Shown piece by piece: positions 566 to 10,596 of a stretch of DNA of 32,963 nt. The DNA is from Desulfobacterales bacterium. Its GTDB lineage: Bacteria; Desulfobacterota; Desulfobulbia; Desulfobulbales; JAJRZW01. Each line of letters starts with the position of its first letter. Position 1 is the stretch's first letter. The DNA lies in NCBI GenBank assembly GCA_026993265.1, contig JALWTY010000001.1, forward strand, positions 1 to 32,963, given 5' to 3'. The notes below the pieces were generated by a model, which was not told where the DNA came from, made no database searches, and saw only the letters and a list, made by a program, of their open reading frames with translations. The translations under genes and the position numbers were made by a program.

Positions 566-3500
566 TCATCTTTCTCCTGAACCCCATCCCCCGCCGCCCG
601 GGGTTTTTATTATCAGCCGGTCGCCCCGGGACATTTTTGCAGTGAACTTGCCGGGCATCTCCATTTTTTCGCCGTCCCTTACGAGGATGTTGCGGCCCGG
701 TTTGCCCTCTGCGCCGCCTTCCATGCCGAAGGGCGCGGTGCTGCGGCGTTCCGACAGGAGCGACACCTCCACCCGGGCCTTGAACTCGAACTCGCGGACG
801 ATGCCGTCTCCGCCGGGGAACCGGCCCGGGCCGCCCGAGCCACGGCGCACCGCGAAACGGCGCAGAACCACGGGGTAACGGCTTTCGAGGATCTCCGGGT
901 CGGTGATCCTGGTGTTGGTCATGTGGGTGTGGACCGCGTCCGCGCCGGGCCAGCCCGGCCCTGCACCGCTGCCGCCGCCGATGGTTTCATAGTAACCGAA
1001 ACTGTCATCGCCGATGGTCAGGTTGTTCATGCAGCCCTGGCTTGCGGCCGCGGCCCGGAAGGCCCGGAGCAGCACGTCCACGATCCGCTGCGAGGTGAGG
1101 ACGTTGCCCCCGGCCACGGCCGCGTCCTCGGGCGGGTCGAGGATGGAGCCGGGCGGAATCCTTATGGAAAGCGGGGCAAGGCAGCCGTGGTTGAGGGGGA
1201 TGTCCTCGGCGATGAGCAGCCGGATCACGTAGAGCACCGCCGACATGGTAACGGCCCGCGGCGCGTTCCAGTTGCCCGCCACTGCCGGGCCGGTGCCGGA
1301 AAAATCCATCACCGCGCCGCCAGTGGCCGGGTCTATCTCTATTTCGACCGCGATCGTGGTGCCGTCGTCCATGCGGTCTGCGGCCGCGAGCCTGGTTCCG
1401 TAGCGGCGCGCAAGCTCCATCAGCATGGCGCGGCTGGCCTGTTCGGCGTTCTTCTGGATGTGGCCCATGTAGGCGAGCACCGTCTCCCGGGAGTGGTTTT
1501 TTATCATTGCCAGCACCAGTTCCGCGCCCTGGCGGTTGGCCGCGACCTGGGCTGCGAGATCGGAGACGTTGTCTTCCGGCCGCCTGGCCCCGGAAAGAAG
1601 CCGCCGCAGTTCCTGTTCCGCTAACGCTCCGTCTTTCACCAGGGTGAAACTCTTTATCGCCACCCCCTCGTCGGCGAGTTTTTTTGAAAAGGGCGGCATG
1701 GAACCCGGCGTGATGCCGCCGATGTCGGCGTGGTGGCCGCGGTTGGCCATGAAGAAGATGAGTTCGCCGCGGTCGAACACCGGGGTGATGACCGTCAGGT
1801 CGGGCAGGTGGCTGCCGCCCGCGGCCGGGTGGTTCGAAAGGATGACCTCGCCGTCGCGGAACCTTCCCGCCCGGAGCCGGATCTGGCTCTTCACCGCCTC
1901 GTCCATGGCCCCGAGGTGCACCGGCTGGTGCGGGGCGTTGGCCACCAGGTTGCCGGAGGCGTCAAAGACGGCGCAGGAGAAGTCGCAGCGTTCCTTGATG
2001 TTGGTGGAGATGGCGGTGCGCTGCAGGGTGCGGCCCATCTGTTCGGCCACCGACATGAACAGGTTGCCGAACACCGAGAGGCGCACCGGATCGGCCTTGG
2101 CGGTTTTTTCTTTCCCGCCGGTTTTCCTCTCCGGTTCCATGCCGCGCCGCGGCAGGGTGATGGTCACGTCCCCGGCCGGGGAAACCTCGGCCGTGCATCC
2201 GGGCTCGACCACCACGGTCGAGGTGTCGCGGACGAGCAGCGCCGGGCCGGTGATCTTGCCGCCGCAGTTTTCCGACAGGTCGAATACCGGGGTGTCCCTG
2301 CGGCCGCCGGAGAAGAAACAGGATACGGTCCGCACCGGCTTCATCGCCTTGCCCTCCTCTGCCGTCTCCGCGGCCTCTTCCACCGGCTCGGGCGTCTCCT
2401 CGGCCCTTATCCGCACCGCCTCGATGAGCACGGCCCGGTCTTCCATGACAAAGCCGAACTCCCGCTGGTGGGCGCGGGCAAAGGCGGCCGTGTAGTCTCC
2501 GTCTTGCGGCCGCATGACCATTATCCTGGTGTCGGTTCCCTCATAACGCAGGGCGAGGTACTGGCTGGTGCGGATTTTTTTTGCGTTTGCGCCCTGGGCC
2601 GCGAGCTTTTCCCTGGCCCTGGCCGCAAGGGCGTCCAGGCGGCGGTGGATGTCCGCGAGGTTTGCCGGATCGTCCACCCGGCCGCCGGCCGGCTCGCTCA
2701 GCTCTTCCGCAAGGCTTGCACGGGCCAGGCCCCAGGCCGAGAGGATGCCGCTGTGACGCGGAATGTGGACGGTTTCTATCCCCAGGCTGGCCGCGATGCC
2801 GCAGGCGTGCTGGCCGCCTGCGCCGCCAAAGCACACGAGCACGTGGTCGCGGAGATCGAAGCCGCGGGCCACGGTGATCTCGCGGATGGGCCTGGCCATG
2901 GTCTGGTTCGCCACCTCGATAAACCCGGCCGCTATCTCGTCGATGTCCATCTCGGGCTCGTTCTGCCGCCTGCGGTCGCGGTTGATGGCCTCGGCCAGTT
3001 CGGCAAAGGCCTTCCTGCTTGCGGCGATGTCCAGGGGCTGGTCGGCGTTTTTTCCGAAGATGGCGGGGAACAGTTCCGGCTGCAGGCGGCCGAGCACCAG
3101 GTTGGCGTCGGTGACGGCGAGCGGGCCGCCTTTCTTGTAGCAAACCGGTCCCGGGTCCGCGCCGGCCGATTCCGGCCCCACCTCGAACATGCCGTGGCGG
3201 TAGAAGAGGCGGGAGCCGCCGCCTGCGGCCACAGTGTTTATCATGAGCTGCGGGGACTGGATCCTGACGCCTGCGGTCTCGGACTCGTCGGTTAGTTCGT
3301 ACTCCCCGCCGTAACGGCAGACGTCGGTGGAGGTGCCGCCCATGTCAAAGCCGATCACCGGCCGGCCGAACCTGCGGTATCCGCTCTCCGCGCAGCCGGT
3401 CACCCCGCCGGCCGGGCCGGAGAGGATGGCGGATGAGCCCCGGAAGCGGCCGGCCGCGGCCAGCCCGCCGTCCGAGCGCATGAAAAAGATCTTTTCCGCC

Positions 3501-4351
3501 GGAACTCCCTCGCGGAAGCGGGAGAGGAATCCGTCCAGGTATTCGCGGATCAGGGGGGAGAGGTAGGCGTCCACCATGGCGGTGTCGCCGCGGCGGACGA
3601 TGCGGGCCTGGCGGTTGACCTCGGATGACAGCGACACCTGTGAGATCCCCGCCTTCCGCGCCATCCGGCCCACCATGCGCTCGTGCTCGGGAAAGAGGTG
3701 GGCGTGCATGAAGACCACGGCCACGCTGTCTATCCCCCTGGCCGCGACCGCGCGCATCCGCCTTTCGACCTCCTCCGGGTCCGGGGTCTTCTCTATGACC
3801 AGCGGCGTGCCGTCGATGCCGGCGTGGTCCGGTTTTTCCCCCCTGGCCGCGGGCCGCACCCGCTCGTCGATTTCGATCACCTCCTCGTAGAGCAGGGAGG
3901 GCTTTTTGATCTCGAGCGCGAAGAGTTCCGGCCGGTTCTGGTAACCGATCTCGAGCAGGTCGCCGAATCCGCGGGTGATGACCAGGGCGCAGCGGGCCCC
4001 CTTTCGTTCCAGCAGGGCGTTGGTGGCCACGGTGGTGCCCATGCGCACCTGGCCGATAATCCCCGGCGGGATCTCGCCGGGTTCGAGGTCACGGCCGAGT
4101 ACACGGGCCACCACCCTTCTTATGCCCTCGGCCGGCGCGTCCGGGTAGTGGGCGGGGTCCACGGACAGGAGTTTTTCGGTGAAGACCCGGCCGTCGCCGG
4201 TCCAGGCGTAAATGTCAGTGAAGGTGCCGCCCCGGTCGATGGCGAAATGTATCCTTTGTCCCGAATCCGTGACGGCTCCGTTACCAGGGGACGGGGGACA
4301 GGAGACAGGAGACGGCCGGCGGATGCGGCCTTCGGCCGCGTTCTTTTGCAT
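566..4351 (-). CDS. Fused HyuA-HyuB protein: ATP-dependent 5-oxoprolinase / hydantoinase family
   Basis: This 1261-residue protein has the usual length of fused 5-oxoprolinases. The N-terminal hydantoinase A half carries the ATP-binding signature DRGGTFTD (residues ~39-46), a GPAGG segment and the FDMGGTSTD loop. The HyuB half starts around residue 745 (NLFMSVAEQMGRTLQRTAIS) and includes NAPHQPVHLGAM and NRGHHADIGG, ending in a Gly-rich tail. Family enzymes hydrolyse 5-oxoproline or hydantoin rings using ATP in the cytoplasm. The exact substrate cannot be read from the sequence. The ATG at 4351 has a modest AGGG upstream, and I see no clear alternative start. Residues ~12-23 are encoded by a 34-bp dispersed repeat also found at 20555-20588, so the first ~30 residues look like an added leader. 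It lies 86 nt downstream of glyS on the same strand. Confidence 0.85.
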   Translation of the reverse strand: MQKNAAEGRIRRPSPVSCPPSPGNGAVTDSGQRIHFAIDRGGTFTDIYAWTGDGRVFTEKLLSVDPAHYPDAPAEGIRRVVARVLGRDLEPGEIPPGIIGQVRMGTTVATNALLERKGARCALVITRGFGDLLEIGYQNRPELFALEIKKPSLLYEEVIEIDERVRPAARGEKPDHAGIDGTPLVIEKTPDPEEVERRMRAVAARGIDSVAVVFMHAHLFPEHERMVGRMARKAGISQVSLSSEVNRQARIVRRGDTAMVDAYLSPLIREYLDGFLSRFREGVPAEKIFFMRSDGGLAAAGRFRGSSAILSGPAGGVTGCAESGYRRFGRPVIGFDMGGTSTDVCRYGGEYELTDESETAGVRIQSPQLMINTVAAGGGSRLFYRHGMFEVGPESAGADPGPVCYKKGGPLAVTDANLVLGRLQPELFPAIFGKNADQPLDIAASRKAFAELAEAINRDRRRQNEPEMDIDEIAAGFIEVANQTMARPIREITVARGFDLRDHVLVCFGGAGGQHACGIAASLGIETVHIPRHSGILSAWGLARASLAEELSEPAGGRVDDPANLADIHRRLDALAARAREKLAAQGANAKKIRTSQYLALRYEGTDTRIMVMRPQDGDYTAAFARAHQREFGFVMEDRAVLIEAVRIRAEETPEPVEEAAETAEEGKAMKPVRTVSCFFSGGRRDTPVFDLSENCGGKITGPALLVRDTSTVVVEPGCTAEVSPAGDVTITLPRRGMEPERKTGGKEKTAKADPVRLSVFGNLFMSVAEQMGRTLQRTAISTNIKERCDFSCAVFDASGNLVANAPHQPVHLGAMDEAVKSQIRLRAGRFRDGEVILSNHPAAGGSHLPDLTVITPVFDRGELIFFMANRGHHADIGGITPGSMPPFSKKLADEGVAIKSFTLVKDGALAEQELRRLLSGARRPEDNVSDLAAQVAANRQGAELVLAMIKNHSRETVLAYMGHIQKNAEQASRAMLMELARRYGTRLAAADRMDDGTTIAVEIEIDPATGGAVMDFSGTGPAVAGNWNAPRAVTMSAVLYVIRLLIAEDIPLNHGCLAPLSIRIPPGSILDPPEDAAVAGGNVLTSQRIVDVLLRAFRAAAASQGCMNNLTIGDDSFGYYETIGGGSGAGPGWPGADAVHTHMTNTRITDPEILESRYPVVLRRFAVRRGSGGPGRFPGGDGIVREFEFKARVEVSLLSERRSTAPFGMEGGAEGKPGRNILVRDGEKMEMPGKFTAKMSRGDRLIIKTPGGGGWGSGER
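589..608 (+). terminator. Possible short intrinsic terminator after the HDOD fragment
   Basis: CCCCG-CCGCC-CGGGG forms a 5-bp GC stem followed immediately by TTTTT. It sits 43 nt after the plus-strand stop codon. It also lies inside the last codons of the convergent minus-strand gene, whose Gly-rich C-terminus explains part of the GC pattern, so the resemblance may be accidental. Confidence 0.35.
4284..4317 (+). repeat. 34-bp dispersed repeat, copy 1 (inside the hyuAB 5' end)
   Basis: CCAGGGGACGGGGGACAGGA is the first part of a 34-nt block that recurs, with three mismatches and in opposite orientation, at 20555-20588. It consists of GGGGACA/GGAGACA-type 7-nt sub-units. Here it encodes part of the atypical N-terminal leader of the 5-oxoprolinase. 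Confidence 0.75.
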
Positions 4352-4437: not shown

Positions 4438-6501
4438 TCAGCCCATCCTGGAGAAATCGCCCACCCTCAGGAACAGCCGCGCCACCCGGCCCATCAGGCT
4501 GATGCGGTTTGCGCGCAGCTTTTCGTCCTCGGCCATGACCATGACCTGGTCGAAAAAGGCGTCGATGGGATCCTTGAGGCCGAGAAAGGAACGCATGGCC
4601 GCCTGGTAATCGCCATTTTCCAGCAGGGGAGCGGTCTTTTCCTCGGTGGCGGACAGGGCCTCGTGCAGGTTGCGCTCCGCCTCCTCGGTGAGCAGGGCGG
4701 GGTCGAATCTTTCCGGCTCCGCATCCTGGCCTTTGAGGATGTTCCTCACCCGCTTGAAGGAGCCGGCGAGAATGGCGAAGGATTCGTCCCGGCTGGCCGC
4801 GGCAAGGGCCTCGAGCCTGCGGTCGCAGTCCGGAATGGAGTCGAAAGATACCGAGGTGACCGCCTCCACCGCGTTGACGGAAAAGGCCGCGGCCCGGTCG
4901 TTCACGTAGCGGCCGCGGATGAAGTCGAGAGCGGCCCGGACCGTTTCATCCTGCGGCTCGGTCAGCATGTCCCCGAGCAGTCTTGCTGCCTCGGCAAGGA
5001 GTTCCGCGAGCGGGATCGCAAAACCGTGTCCGGCGATGATGTGGATCATGCCCAGGGCCAGCCTTCTCAGGCCAAAGGGATCGGCGTTGCCGCTCGGCTG
5101 CTTGCCGGTGCCGAAACAGGCGGCAATGGTGTCTATCCGGTCGGCGATGCCGACTATGGCCCCGGCCGCGGAACCGGGCAGCCCGGCCCCGGCCCGCACC
5201 GGCATGTAGTGCTCGCCGATGGCCTCGCAGACCTCGGCCGCCTCGCCTGCGAGCCTTGCGTACTCGCGGCCCATGATCCCCTGCAGGCTGGGGAACTCGC
5301 CCACCATCTCGGTGAGCAGGTCGGCCTTGGCCAGCCCGGCCGCGCGCACGGCGTGTTCGCGGAGCTGCGGAGCAATCCGTTCGCAGAGCCAGGCTGCGAG
5401 CTTTTCCATGCGTTCGCTCTTTTCCCGCATGGTGCCGAGCCCGGCCTGGAAGATCACGCCGTCCAGGCGGCCCGCGAGATCGGAAAGGGGTGTTTTGCCG
5501 TCTTCCCGGAAGAAGAAGAGGGCGTCCTCGAGCCGGGCGCGGAGAACCCGTTCATGGCCGCGGACCGCGTCCGCGTCGTCGCCGGTGTCGATGTTGTTTA
5601 TGGCGACGAAGTTCGGCATGAGTTTTCCGTCCGTATTCACCACGGCAAAGTATTTCTGATGCTCGCGCATGGAGGTGATGAGCACCTCGCGGGGCAGTTC
5701 GAGGAATTTTTCGTCAAAGGAACCGGCCACCGCGTGCGGCATCTCCACCAGGTTGGTTACCAGATCCAGGAGTTCTTCGTCCGCAAGCAGCACGCCGCCC
5801 GCCTTTTCCGCAGCATTCCTGGCCTGTTCCGCGATCATCTCCCGCCGCTCGGCGATGTCCGCCACCACCCCGGCATCCCGCAGCCTTTCGCGGTAGGACG
5901 CCGCGTCCACCCGGACCGGGGCGGGAGAGGTGAAACGGTGGCCGAAGCTGTCCGGGCCGCTTTGCACCTCGTTGATCCGGCAGGGAATCACGCTCTCGTC
6001 AAAGACAGCGGCGATCCACTTCACCGGCCGGGCGAAATGGTCCTTGCCGCTGCCCCAGCGCATGGACTTGGGAAAGGGAATGTGGGCGATGATGTCGCCG
6101 AGAACCGGCGGCAGGATGGCAACGGTGTCCCGGCCGCGGTTCTCCACCACCGCCATCAGGTATTCCCCCTTGGGGGTTTCGACCACCTTGAGGTCTTCCA
6201 CGGCCACGCCGCGGCTTGCGGCAAAACCGGTGGCCGCCCTGGTCGGGTTGCCGTCAGCGTCAAAGGCGGCCTTTTTCGGCGGCCCGGTGACCTCCTCGCG
6301 CCAGTCCGGCTGTCTTGCGGCAAGGCCCCTCACCATCAGGGTGAGCCGCCGCGGGGTGCCGCAGGTGTATATCTCCCCGTGGTCGAGGCGGTTTTCCTCC
6401 AGGGATGCGGTCATCCTTTCGGCCATGAATTCGAGGGCCGGGCCGATGTATCCGGCCGGGATCTCCTCGGTTCCTATCTCGAACAGCAAATCACCGCGCA
6501 T
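4438..6501 (-). CDS. glyS: Glycyl-tRNA synthetase, beta subunit
   Basis: GlyS is the beta subunit of the bacterial heterotetrameric glycyl-tRNA synthetase, which charges tRNA-Gly in the cytoplasm. The N-terminus MRGDLLFEIGTEEIPAGYI is the family hallmark. The catalytic-core-like and HD-like regions follow (SMREHQKYFAVVN, ADRIDTIAACF, DPFGLRRLALGM), with an anticodon-binding C-terminus (FFDQVMVMAEDEKLRANRISL). The length of 687 residues is close to E. coli GlyS. The ORF track starts six residues earlier. I prefer the ATG at 6501 because AGGAGAG lies 7-8 nt before it, inside the longer ORF, and because the family begins there. The alpha subunit gene glyQ, usually adjacent, is not in this window. 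The upstream neighbour on this strand is the FolE2-like gene. Confidence 0.95.
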   Translation of the reverse strand: MRGDLLFEIGTEEIPAGYIGPALEFMAERMTASLEENRLDHGEIYTCGTPRRLTLMVRGLAARQPDWREEVTGPPKKAAFDADGNPTRAATGFAASRGVAVEDLKVVETPKGEYLMAVVENRGRDTVAILPPVLGDIIAHIPFPKSMRWGSGKDHFARPVKWIAAVFDESVIPCRINEVQSGPDSFGHRFTSPAPVRVDAASYRERLRDAGVVADIAERREMIAEQARNAAEKAGGVLLADEELLDLVTNLVEMPHAVAGSFDEKFLELPREVLITSMREHQKYFAVVNTDGKLMPNFVAINNIDTGDDADAVRGHERVLRARLEDALFFFREDGKTPLSDLAGRLDGVIFQAGLGTMREKSERMEKLAAWLCERIAPQLREHAVRAAGLAKADLLTEMVGEFPSLQGIMGREYARLAGEAAEVCEAIGEHYMPVRAGAGLPGSAAGAIVGIADRIDTIAACFGTGKQPSGNADPFGLRRLALGMIHIIAGHGFAIPLAELLAEAARLLGDMLTEPQDETVRAALDFIRGRYVNDRAAAFSVNAVEAVTSVSFDSIPDCDRRLEALAAASRDESFAILAGSFKRVRNILKGQDAEPERFDPALLTEEAERNLHEALSATEEKTAPLLENGDYQAAMRSFLGLKDPIDAFFDQVMVMAEDEKLRANRISLMGRVARLFLRVGDFSRMG

Positions 6502-6648
6502 CTTGTATCTCTCCTGCATCGGATATTTTTTGTCTCACATGCGGAACGCGCCCTGTCCGCCGGGGAGGCGGAGAGCGCGGACGCCGCGTTTGGGGGCGGG
6601 GCCGCAAAGCCGCGCTTCCGGGGGACGGAAGCCTCGCGAGGCCGTTCT

Positions 6649-7389
6649 TCAGGCGCTGTCGTCCTGCGGCCCTTCGACCAGGGCGAAGGTGGAGTACCCC
6701 TCGGAGAGGTTTTTCACCTTAAGGGAAAACCACCGCACCGGGGGGAAATCCTCCAGCGCCCTGCCGATGGCCCGGGCCATTCCTTCCACCGTGGGGCCTC
6801 CGTCCTCGTCCCCGGACGGGTCATTATGCCGCAGGATCGCTTCTTCCGCCAGGTTGATTATCTCCTCGATCCAGGCGAAACGTTCGAAACGCACCTGGAT
6901 CAGGGCCTCGCCCCAGCGGCCGCGGGACCTGGGCATGAGCCCGGCCCTGGGCGCGGGCGGGGCGAGGCGGATGGGGATCTTCACCCCAAGGACCAGGTCA
7001 TGACCGCCGGCAAGGGAGCCGTGCAGGCTGCACATGTAGCGGTCCATCTCCACCCGCACCGGCGCGGGCCGCTCCCGTTTGACGAAAAAGGGAAAGGTCA
7101 TCTCCACGTGGGCCTCCTCGGCCTCGAGCCTCTCCTTCATCTCCTCGAGGATGCGGTGAAAACCCTTGATGCCGATGCGGTCCCGGTGGTTGTTGAGGAT
7201 CTCGACGAACCGGCTCATGTGGGTCCCCTTGAAGTGGTGGGGGAGGTTTACGAACATGTTCACCGAGGCGATGGTGCGCTGCTCGCGGTTGGCGCGGTCC
7301 AGCACGGTCACCGGGTAGGTGATGTCCCGGACTCCGACCTTGCGGATGTTGACTAGCCGGTCGTCCGGCTGGCTCTGGATGTCCTGCAT
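6649..7389 (-). CDS. FolE2-like (GTP cyclohydrolase IB family) protein lacking the expected catalytic residues
   Basis: The protein has 246 residues from the ATG at 7389. The family-typical start MQDIQSQPD and the following RKVGVRDITYPVTVLDR, FKGTHMSRFVEILN and AHVEMTFPFFVKRE clearly match the FolE2/MptA family (COG1469), which makes dihydroneopterin triphosphate from GTP. The catalytic stretch differs: where the family has a CPCS motif, this protein reads RLAPPAPRAG (residues 141-150). The downstream histidine position (family GAHNQRS) is Arg (~156). The ELY and SIHNH segments near the C-terminus are also not recognisable. The frame is open throughout and neither alternative frame restores Cys, so this is not a simple frameshift. 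I infer a diverged, probably non-cyclohydrolase paralogue. No strong ribosome binding site precedes 7389, and the longer ORF start at 7494 adds 35 atypical residues. Confidence 0.8.
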   Translation of the reverse strand: MQDIQSQPDDRLVNIRKVGVRDITYPVTVLDRANREQRTIASVNMFVNLPHHFKGTHMSRFVEILNNHRDRIGIKGFHRILEEMKERLEAEEAHVEMTFPFFVKRERPAPVRVEMDRYMCSLHGSLAGGHDLVLGVKIPIRLAPPAPRAGLMPRSRGRWGEALIQVRFERFAWIEEIINLAEEAILRHNDPSGDEDGGPTVEGMARAIGRALEDFPPVRWFSLKVKNLSEGYSTFALVEGPQDDSA

Positions 7390-7576: not shown

Positions 7577-7930
7577 CTACTGGTCGAGGATCTGCGCCAC
7601 CGTATCCCGCAGTTCGTCGAGGTCGGCCGACTTGACCACAAAGGCGTCGCAGGCCCAGGAAGAGAGGTCCTGCTTGTACTCCTGGTAGGCGGAACTCAGG
7701 ATGACCGGGAGTTCCGGGTCGCTCTCCTTGAGCTTGCGCAGCACCTCGATCCCGTTGATTCCCGGCATCTGGATGTCGAGGATTACCAGATCGGGCCTGA
7801 GGGCCGGAACCAGCCGCAGCGCCTCCTCGCCGTTCATGGCCGAGTGGACCTCGTAGCCGGCGTTTTCTAGTTCGTCGCGGAAAATCAGATGGATGGACTC
7901 TTCGTCGTCGACAACCAGGATTTTTTTCAT
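7577..7930 (-). CDS. Stand-alone response regulator receiver protein
   Basis: This is a single CheY-like receiver domain of 117 residues with no output domain. It has the acidic pair D8-D9 (ILVVDDEE), the phospho-acceptor D52 (LVILDIQMPG), Ser at 79/80 and K100 (VVKSADLDEL). It is expected to accept phosphate from an unknown histidine kinase and signal through protein contacts. The start is supported by GGAG seven nt upstream of the ATG. It lies 22 nt after galT on the same strand and upstream of the FolE2-like gene (187-nt gap). No kinase is adjacent. Confidence 0.93.
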   Translation of the reverse strand: MKKILVVDDEESIHLIFRDELENAGYEVHSAMNGEEALRLVPALRPDLVILDIQMPGINGIEVLRKLKESDPELPVILSSAYQEYKQDLSSWACDAFVVKSADLDELRDTVAQILDQ

Positions 7931-7952: not shown

Positions 7953-8957
7953 TCAGCCCTGTATATTGGCGTCGCGCAGGTACGATGCCGCCTTTTCCGG
8001 CGGCAGGGGATTGATGTAGAACCCGGATCCCCATTCGAATCCCGCGATCTGGGTCAGTTTGGGCATGATTTCGAAATGCCAGTGGTAGTACTCCAGCGGC
8101 CCGTCCCCAAGGGGAGCGGTGTGGAGGACGAAGTTGTAGGGGACGTCGTTTATGCAGGCGTTGAGGCGGCGCATGCACTCGGAAAAGATGGCCGCCAGCG
8201 CCTTGAACTGCGCCTCGGTGGTGTCGATGTAGGATGAACTGTGCCCCTTGGGCAGAACCCACATTTCAAAGGGCGAGCGCGGCGCGAACGGGGTTATGGC
8301 GAGGAAATCGTCGTTCTCGGCCACCACCCTGACGTTTTGCCTCTTTTCCTGGCGGATGATGTCGCAGAAGATGCAGCGCTCCTTGTAGCCGTAATACTTT
8401 CTGCTGCCCTCCAGTTCGCTGACGATCATCCGCGGCAGCACCGGCAGGGCCACGAGCTGGGAATGGGAATGCTCGAGCGAGGCCCCGGCCGCATGGCCGT
8501 AGTTCTTGAAGACCATCACGTACTTGAAGCGGGGGTCGCGGCCGAGATCGATGATCCGGTCGCGGTAGGCCCAGAATACCTGGACCATCTTGTCCGGCGG
8601 CATGAACGAGAAGGGCAGGTTGTGCTCCGGGCTTTCGACGATGACCTCGTGGGCGCCGATGCCGTTCATCTTGTCGTATATGCCGTCGCCTTCCTTGTCG
8701 AGATCTCCCTCGATCACCAGGGCGGGAAACTTGTTGGGAACCACCCGCAGGCTCCAGCCGGGGCGGTTGGGCGCGGGAACGGTGCGGCCGTAGCTCAGGA
8801 CTTCTGGCGGAGTGGTGTTCTCGTGGCCGGGGCACAGGGGACAGAACCCTTCCTTGCTCTCGGCCCGTTCAACGACGAAATCGGTCGGCCGCTTCGAGCG
8901 TTCGGTGGCGATGATTATCCAGCGGCCGAGGATGGGATCGCGACGCAGTTCAGGCAT
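7953..8957 (-). CDS. galT: Galactose-1-phosphate uridylyltransferase family (HIT superfamily nucleotidyltransferase)
   Basis: The 334-residue protein matches the GalT family. It has MPELRRDPILGRWIIIATER at the N-terminus, a zinc-type CPLC (C39, C42), a second CIFC pair, and the active-site segment H163-S-H165-S-Q167, where H165 aligns with the nucleotidylated histidine of HPHxQ. YHWHFEIMPKL follows near the C-terminus. GalT transfers UMP between UDP-glucose and galactose-1-phosphate. The HSHSQ variant resembles the GalT-like ADP-glucose phosphorylase of plants, so the real substrate could be a different sugar phosphate. No other Leloir-pathway gene is nearby. The start is supported by AGGA about seven nt upstream. 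It is part of the long minus-strand run headed by rpoZ. Confidence 0.85.
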   Translation of the reverse strand: MPELRRDPILGRWIIIATERSKRPTDFVVERAESKEGFCPLCPGHENTTPPEVLSYGRTVPAPNRPGWSLRVVPNKFPALVIEGDLDKEGDGIYDKMNGIGAHEVIVESPEHNLPFSFMPPDKMVQVFWAYRDRIIDLGRDPRFKYVMVFKNYGHAAGASLEHSHSQLVALPVLPRMIVSELEGSRKYYGYKERCIFCDIIRQEKRQNVRVVAENDDFLAITPFAPRSPFEMWVLPKGHSSSYIDTTEAQFKALAAIFSECMRRLNACINDVPYNFVLHTAPLGDGPLEYYHWHFEIMPKLTQIAGFEWGSGFYINPLPPEKAASYLRDANIQG

Positions 8958-9037: not shown

Positions 9038-9400
9038 TCATCCGGCCTTGGCGTTTTCCTGGTGTTCCTGCCTGGTCTTGCATTCTATGCAGTACGACGC
9101 CACCGGCCTGGCCTCGAGCCGCTCGATGGCGATGTCGTCGCCGCAGGACTCGCAAATGCCGTACTCGCCGTTGTCGATCTTTTCCATCGCCGCCTGAATC
9201 TTGGCGAGCAGCTTGCGCTCCCGGTCACGCAGCCGCAGCTCGAAGCTGCGCTCCGACTCTGCCGCGGCCCGGTCGGTGGGGTCGGGGTAGTTGTCGGTGT
9301 GATCGGTCATCTCGTTCAGGGTCTTTTCCGCCTCTCCCAGGAGTTCCATGCTCATCTTTTCGAGCTTCTCACGGAAGTGAGCCAGAGTCTCCTCGTTCAT
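9038..9400 (-). CDS. DksA/TraR-family C4 zinc-finger protein
   Basis: The 120-residue protein has an N-terminal coiled-coil hairpin and a C4 zinc finger (C83, C86, C104, C107, spacing C-x2-C-x17-C-x2-C). The coiled-coil tip has D40-P-T-D43-R-A45, the DxxDxA motif with which DksA reaches the RNA polymerase active site through the secondary channel. DksA with ppGpp adjusts promoter choice during starvation. Coiled-coil length and tip motif favour DksA over the short TraR/YbiI type. It is the third gene after rpoZ, an RNA polymerase subunit that forms a ppGpp site, so the pairing makes functional sense. GGAG lies eight nt before the ATG. Confidence 0.9.
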   Translation of the reverse strand: MNEETLAHFREKLEKMSMELLGEAEKTLNEMTDHTDNYPDPTDRAAAESERSFELRLRDRERKLLAKIQAAMEKIDNGEYGICESCGDDIAIERLEARPVASYCIECKTRQEHQENAKAG

Positions 9401-9495: not shown

Positions 9496-10596
9496 TCAGG
9501 ATGCCATTCGGAACAGCCTTTTCAGAAATCCTTCGTCGTTGTCCGCCTCCCTTTCCAGGTCGGCGAACTCCTCGAGCAGCTCGCGCTGTTTCGCGCTCAG
9601 CTTCTTCGGCACCCTGACCTCGATCTCTACGATCATGTCGCCACGGCCGCCGCCTCTTAGCCTTGGGATGCCCTCCCCCTCTATGACCAGGGTGTCGCCC
9701 GGCTGGGTTCCGGCCGGGATGTCGAGTTCGCTCTTGCCGTGGATTGTCGGCACCTCTATGCGGCACCCGAGCGCGGCCTGGGTCATGGACACCGGCAGCC
9801 GCAGGTGAACGTCGTAGCCGTCGCGGTGGAAGTACTCGTGCGGCTCCACGTAAAGGAACACGTAGAGATCGCCGGGCGGGCCGTGCCTGAGGCCGCCTTC
9901 GCCCTCGCCGCTCACCCGCATCCTCGCGCCGTGGTCCACCCCGGCCGGTATCTTTATGGACAGGGTCTTTTCTACTTCCCGCAGCCCCGCGCCGCCGCAG
10001 TCTTCGCACGGGTCGCTTATGATCCTGCCCTCCCCCCGGCAGGCCGGGCAGGTGGTGCTTACCCTGAAGAAACCCTGGGCCCGGACGATCTGGCCGCGGC
10101 CGCCGCACTGGTGGCAGATTGCCGGATCGCTGCCCTCTTTCGCGCCGGTGCCGCCGCAGCCTGGGCAGGTGTCGGCCCGGGTGATGCGGATCTCTTTCTC
10201 TGTTCCCAGGGCCGCTTCCATGAAGGTGATGTTGAGATCGTAGCGGAGATCGGCTCCGCGGGTCGGGCCGGAACGCTGGTGTCGGGCGCGGCCGAAACCG
10301 AAGAGGTCGTCGAATATGTCACTGAAACTTGAAAAGATGTCGCTGAAATCGCCCGGCCCCTGGTAACCGCTGTTTCTCAGGCCGTCGATGCCGTAGCGGT
10401 CGTATATCTGCCGTTTCTCGGCGTCGCCCAGGACCTCGTAGGCCTCGGCCGCCTCCTTGAAGCGCTCCTCGGCCTCCTTGTCGTCAGGGTTGCGGTCGGG
10501 GTGGTATTTCAGCGCGAGCTTGCGGTAGGCCTTTTTGATTTCATCGGCCGTGGCCGAGCGGCTGACCCCGAGGATTTCGTAGTAGTCCTTTCCCAT
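9496..10596 (-). CDS. dnaJ: Chaperone DnaJ (class A Hsp40)
   Basis: DnaJ delivers unfolded proteins to DnaK and stimulates its ATPase. The 366-residue protein has the full class A layout. The J domain has the HPD motif ([10 protein letters not shown]) within the first 40 residues, followed by a G/F-rich linker ([21 protein letters not shown]). The zinc-binding domain has four CxxCxGxG-type repeats ([32 protein letters not shown]), and the C-terminal substrate-binding and dimerisation domains follow. No dnaK or grpE is adjacent. The gene sits 19 nt behind rpoZ, so the two are likely cotranscribed. The ribosome binding site is weak. A second DnaJ elsewhere in the genome is possible. Confidence 0.95.

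Follow-up and report, generated by a model that had tools for sequence, protein, structure and literature searches.

The gene at positions 6649 to 7389 of the window, the 32,963-nucleotide stretch of DNA analysed here, quite likely encodes a subunit of a GTP cyclohydrolase IB that is heteromeric, with a split active site. On balance it also seems likely that throughout the order Desulfobulbales, whose members are sulfur-cycling bacteria, the first precursor of folate and queuosine is made by an obligate GTP cyclohydrolase IB encoded by two genes, an enzyme that would have arisen by complementary degeneration of a homo-oligomeric FolE2. The heteromeric reading is drawn from the non-overlapping, complementary losses of two FolE2 paralogues, their co-occurrence, the monophyly of each, purifying selection, the absence of FolE, and the full-length gene of the genus g21. 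From these patterns we infer the physical association of the pair, the roles of the motifs and the catalysis.

The reading frame lies on the minus strand, with an ATG at 7389 and a stop at 6649, and encodes 246 amino acids, so that the initial annotation was correct in calling it intact. The protein matched PF02649 with an E-value of 2.4e-41 and 142.4 bits (cut-off 25), which places it in the FolE2 fold family, and the match was confined to profile positions 1-196 of 260. Against the NCBIfam FolE2 equivalog model it scored 114.8 bits, far short of the cut-off of 215, and it was not recognised at the enzyme level. Its closest solved relatives by sequence are the FolE2 structures 2r5r, 8g6c and 3d2o. 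With 20 orthologues as input, AlphaFold2 gave a model (mean pLDDT 72, with the N terminus weakest) that resembled 2r5r, 8g8v and 5k95 over approximately 245 columns with TM scores of 0.63-0.67, consistent with a tandem T-fold.

Motifs were compared in an alignment of 60 complete FolE2s, 50 proteins of the window type (designated DEG) and 46 proteins of type B, the second FolE2 of Desulfobulbales genomes. MQDIQ, KGTHMSRF and FAWIEE are intact in the window protein, which, compared with the complete FolE2s, is without CPC, AHNQR, the LLKRPDEK loop and ESIHNH. This confirmed the earlier description of a FolE2 scaffold in which the CPCS stretch, the next His and SIHNH have been replaced; the LLKRPDEKYVTE loop is also deleted, a loss absent from that description. 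The gene and its aligned features, all on the minus strand, are:

6649 to 7389, minus strand: predicted N-half-competent FolE2 paralogue of the window type (DEG), 246 amino acids; from the ORF, PF02649, the order-wide clade and the model-to-structure match
7375 to 7383, minus strand: DIQ, residues 3-5, N-terminal segment kept here and missing in type B; from the alignment
7207 to 7230, minus strand: KGTHMSRF, residues 54-61, N-module site kept here and lost in type B; from the alignment
6910 to 6969, minus strand: RLAPPAPRAGLMPRSRGRWG, residues 141-160, replacing LCPCSKEIS..GAHNQR; from the alignment
6784 to 6786, minus strand: Glu202, aligning with the FVED Glu, in helix 2 of the C module; from the alignment
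6682 to 6711, minus strand: NLSEGYSTFA, residues 227-236, replacing ENFESIHNHSAYA (ESIHNH); from the alignment

Within the replacement site P153, S155, G157, W159 and G160 are invariant across the window-type clade. The Glu202 position (reference position 213) is conserved in 100% of the complete FolE2s, of type B, of DEG, and of type A, the complete MptA-like FolE2, and this Glu of FVED is probably the one that anchors the purine. In Neisseria gonorrhoeae the second Cys of CPC is Cys149, a residue reportedly important for catalysis. None of the 50 DEG sequences has the catalytic Cys of CPC, the His of AHNQR or the Glu/His set of ESIHxH, and on this count the proposal that the window protein alone is without catalysis is very probably right. 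A frameshift in the CPC stretch was considered and rejected, as the other frames, read by eye, gave no motif and the relatives have the same replacement. A new CxxH metal site in YxCxMHGSL was likewise rejected, since many complete FolE2s and type B proteins have the same Tyr and Cys.

FolE2-like matches were found in 257 of the 258 genomes of the class, all in the window's order, with two matches in most genomes; in the phylum outside the order, nearly every matching genome had a single match. All 30 fetched members of the window type share the replaced site (consensus VPIxPPxPxQxxxGLPRSLGRWG), and their replaced C terminus reads WFSVxVENLxEGYSTFA. Among 80 named loci, 24 carry the degenerate FolE2, and every informatively named one belongs to the Desulfobulbales group (Desulfobulbaceae, Desulfocapsa, Desulfurivibrio, Desulfofustis, Desulfobulbus and Candidatus Electrothrix). 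The remaining 56 loci come mostly from other Thermodesulfobacteriota and carry complete FolE2s, with CPC, AHNQ and SIHxH. The window family is monophyletic with an SH-aLRT support of 100, so that the altered site, which the initial annotation called APPAPR-type, does define its own clade, and type B is monophyletic with a support of 99. In the sampled tree both fall within the bacterial FolE2s and apart from type A; this tree does not settle whether they are sister clades. In close window-type pairs dN/dS was 0.07-0.16, indicating purifying selection. As the replacement is common to every sampled member of an order-wide clade and dN/dS is low, the window gene is the product of neither chance nor decay; the initial annotation was right that a conserved new role is likelier than decay.

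Type B is damaged in the opposite way. It keeps CPC, AHNQR, LLKRPDEK, FVED and ESIHxH, starts about 14 residues later than a complete FolE2 so that the DxQ segment is missing, and has lost KGTHMSRF, where sequences such as RGSCMAVF, RESCVLTF or HDTCAASL are found instead (examples of the type are L196:3175-3909 and L202:3395-4150). Nine further complete or near-complete genomes have a type B with the same pattern, and no hidden motif was found in the 90 bases upstream of its starts in these nine. A type B model with a mean pLDDT of 87 is predicted to have the whole FolE2 fold. The window-type and type B genes are not neighbours; type B is often near an S4-domain RNA-binding gene, a purH-like gene and pyrR (L190-L209), a nucleotide-metabolism setting.

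The losses of the two types are complementary residue by residue. GTHMSR is present in 50/50 window-type proteins and CPC, H[NS]QR and ESIHxH in 0/50, whereas 46/46 type B proteins show the reverse, with CPC, H[NS]QR and ESIHxH present and GTHMSR absent. A conserved set was defined as the 74 positions at least 95% conserved in the 60 complete FolE2s, and a position was counted as retained when kept in at least 80% of a group. The window family has lost 34 of the 74, 32 of them in the C half, and keeps 31/33 N-half and 9/41 C-half positions; type B has lost 21, of which 19 are in the N half, and keeps 14/33 and 39/41, respectively. Not one loss is common to both, against 9.6 expected (hypergeometric P=9e-8, a value that serves only as a guide since conserved positions are not independent). 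Sequence identity within DEG is 0.675 in the N half versus 0.469 in the C half, and within type B 0.520 versus 0.741, while complete FolE2s give 0.605 and 0.629; slow evolution of either half is confined to the copy that retains its motifs.

Co-occurrence was tallied from the search tables for 149 good genomes (at least 90% complete and at most 5% contaminated). The presence of a second FolE or FolE2, raised as a question in the initial annotation, was answered by a second FolE2 in nearly all genomes of the order: both types occur in 138 of the 149 and in 17/17 genomes of at most 10 contigs. The window type alone was found in six good genomes (G000, which is the window's own genome, G019, G221, G017, G248 and G235), type B alone in two (G092 and G255), and neither in three. 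Canonical FolE (PF01227) was found in 0/149 good genomes and in 1 of the 253 genomes of the order; this sole match (L286, G099:C83:7182-7718) is possibly a contaminant, as its assembly has 8% contamination. Strong matches to type A were present in 58 of the 253 genomes (23%; L001, L160-L188). Neither FolE nor type A was found in 12 single-contig genomes, where the pair is therefore the only visible source of cyclohydrolase activity, and type A was rejected as an obligatory partner since most of the order, including these 12, is without it. Only the genus g21 is without both halves. Its four genomes with a match (L240-L243), three of them good, have a single, full-length FolE2 with GTHMSR, CPC, HNQR and SIHNH, which looks acquired, likely by horizontal replacement, as it falls with sequences of Gammaproteobacteria and Magnetococcales.

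Type B was not found in the fragmented assembly of the window's genome. In the sister genome G001 the type B gene is flanked on one side by a HAMP/GGDEF-type gene; its other flank is the region that bears the S4-domain gene in G000, with purH-like and pyrR genes beyond it. The G000 homologues of these flanks lie near the ends of contigs C42 and C196, and each contig passes into unrelated or repeat-like sequence before it ends. The type B locus of G000 thus falls between two contig ends, and its absence cannot be claimed; all six good genomes with the window type alone are fragmented (160-350 contigs), so that true loss of type B in them is likewise unproven. G000 does have an intact type A (L001, G000:C86), and type A is present in four of the six good genomes that have the window type alone. 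In the genus g61 the window type is still under strong selection (dN/dS 0.08), and neither the G235 nor the G236 assembly yielded a type B. The type A of G001 consists of two adjoining fragments (residues 29-79 and 230-281; G001:C45:2624-2926, in L285), as if the middle had been deleted, and its type B is intact.

The gene lies between an orphan receiver gene and glyS, as initially described, in a conserved cluster on the minus strand:

4438 to 6519, minus strand: glyS (glycyl-tRNA synthetase beta subunit), downstream neighbour, from its sequence; downstream in 34/35 fetched loci
7577 to 7930, minus strand: stand-alone receiver-domain protein (PF00072, E=5e-27), upstream neighbour; adjacent in 35/35 fetched loci
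7953 to 8957, minus strand: galT-like gene, conserved cluster member, from locus comparison
9038 to 9400, minus strand: TraR/DksA-type zinc finger gene, conserved cluster member, from locus comparison
9496 to 10596, minus strand: dnaJ, conserved cluster member, from locus comparison

The receiver-FolE2-glyS context is kept with rare exceptions: L061 is the sole fetched locus of the 35 without a downstream glyS, and the named loci agree on the neighbours, with one more (L088) lacking glyS. Further upstream, dnaJ, dksA and galT are found in the fetched loci wherever the contig extends. Of 56 complete FolE2s from outside the order, none adjoins a receiver, glyS or the cluster genes. The cluster dnaJ-dksA-galT-receiver-window gene-glyS looks housekeeping-like, and gives no direct clue to function. 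After glyS the window has a 1261-amino-acid ORF (566-4351, minus strand), named by eye as hydantoinase A/B-like; of the other fetched loci, just L049 and L055 have a homologue there.

A FolE2 subunit has two T-fold modules per chain, and the active sites of the homo-oligomer are thought to lie between subunits. In GCYH-IB the guanine-binding Glu is present and the basic patch that neutralises the phosphates is kept, with its residues coming from different subunits than in GCYH-IA, whose active site needs three subunits (PMC4790348). In the Desulfobulbales FolE2 exists as two paralogues degenerated in complementary ways, and we propose that neither would be active alone. The window protein would give the N-module part, with the DxQ segment plus KGTHMSRF, where the first helix begins, a part that probably corresponds to the patch that binds the triphosphate; type B would give the C-module part, with CPC, AHNQR, LLKRPDEK, the anchoring Glu and ESIHxH. 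Should KGTHMSR from one chain act in the CPC site of the adjacent chain, an active site would form in a mixed ring wherever the N module of a window protein meets the C module of a type B protein, while the opposite interface would be dead, and the losses seen would be the outcome expected of relaxed selection on that dead interface. The initial annotation had offered three roles, those of a regulator, a pterin binder and a subunit of an active FolE2; the last is now favoured, in a form where the partner is the complementarily broken type B, and the other two less so.

The best-surviving alternative, which we nevertheless consider unlikely, is that type B alone is an active cyclohydrolase with an altered hold on the triphosphate, and that the window protein acts apart from it, sensing or regulating by means of KGTHMSR and the conserved Glu, to which GTP or a pterin phosphate would bind. 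It would fit the retention of every catalytic residue in type B and the quality of its model, as well as KGTHMSR and Glu202 in the window protein, the selection on that protein where type B was not found, and its receiver-domain neighbour. It gives no account, however, of the order-wide loss from type B of just those N-half residues that the window protein retains, of 0 overlap among 55 losses, or of why both genes are missing from the one genus with a complete FolE2. It is more doubtful still that both paralogues serve new, unrelated reactions or binding roles, with pterins supplied by type A or an unrecognised enzyme: the complete MptA-like type A of G000 and of the other genomes that carry it could suit such a scheme, but it is at odds with the 12 single-contig genomes that lack type A and FolE alike, and with the full set of catalytic residues in type B. 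That the window gene is a decaying pseudogene, a sequencing error or an assembly artefact, as a profile match covering only part of FolE2 might suggest, has practically no chance of being right given the same replacement in independent genomes across the order, the low dN/dS and the invariant residues of the replaced site.

If the split enzyme is real, bacteria would offer a clear example in which complementary losses, legible per residue, have made an obligate heteromer out of a homomer, with the genus g21 as a natural reversal that serves as a control. It predicts that the two FolE2-annotated proteins of the order, cable bacteria included, are each inactive alone, which bears on pathway annotation and on studies of FolE2 as a drug target, and it offers a simple test for residues of FolE2 that work across the interface between subunits. 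No paper joining FolE2 with Desulfobulb* was found in the open-access literature searched, which is weak evidence of novelty, as most primary FolE2 papers lie outside that scope.

The window protein shares with known FolE2/GCYH-IB (PF02649; 3d2o, 5k95, 8g6c and 2r5r) the same full-length fold, DxQ, KGTHMSRF, WIE and the FVED Glu; it differs in lacking CPC, AHNQR, LLKRPDEK and ESIHNH, and known FolE2 assembles as a homo-oligomer from copies of a single complete chain. Type B is a paralogue of the same fold in the same genomes, also damaged, but with the opposite damage. The archaeal MptA-type GTP cyclohydrolase (type A, L001) belongs to the same superfamily and co-occurs in some genomes, but it is complete (GIHMSR, CPC, HSQR and ESIHIH), and its identity to bacterial FolE2 is only about 25%. 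GFRP is a non-catalytic regulator that acts with eukaryotic GTP cyclohydrolase IA; unlike the window protein it is not a FolE2 homologue, and it does not complete an active site. Although its fold and reaction are unrelated, and the association of the FolE2 pair is a prediction, trypanosomatid deoxyhypusine synthase offers a comparable arrangement, in which two complementary paralogues share an inter-subunit site and each needs the other.
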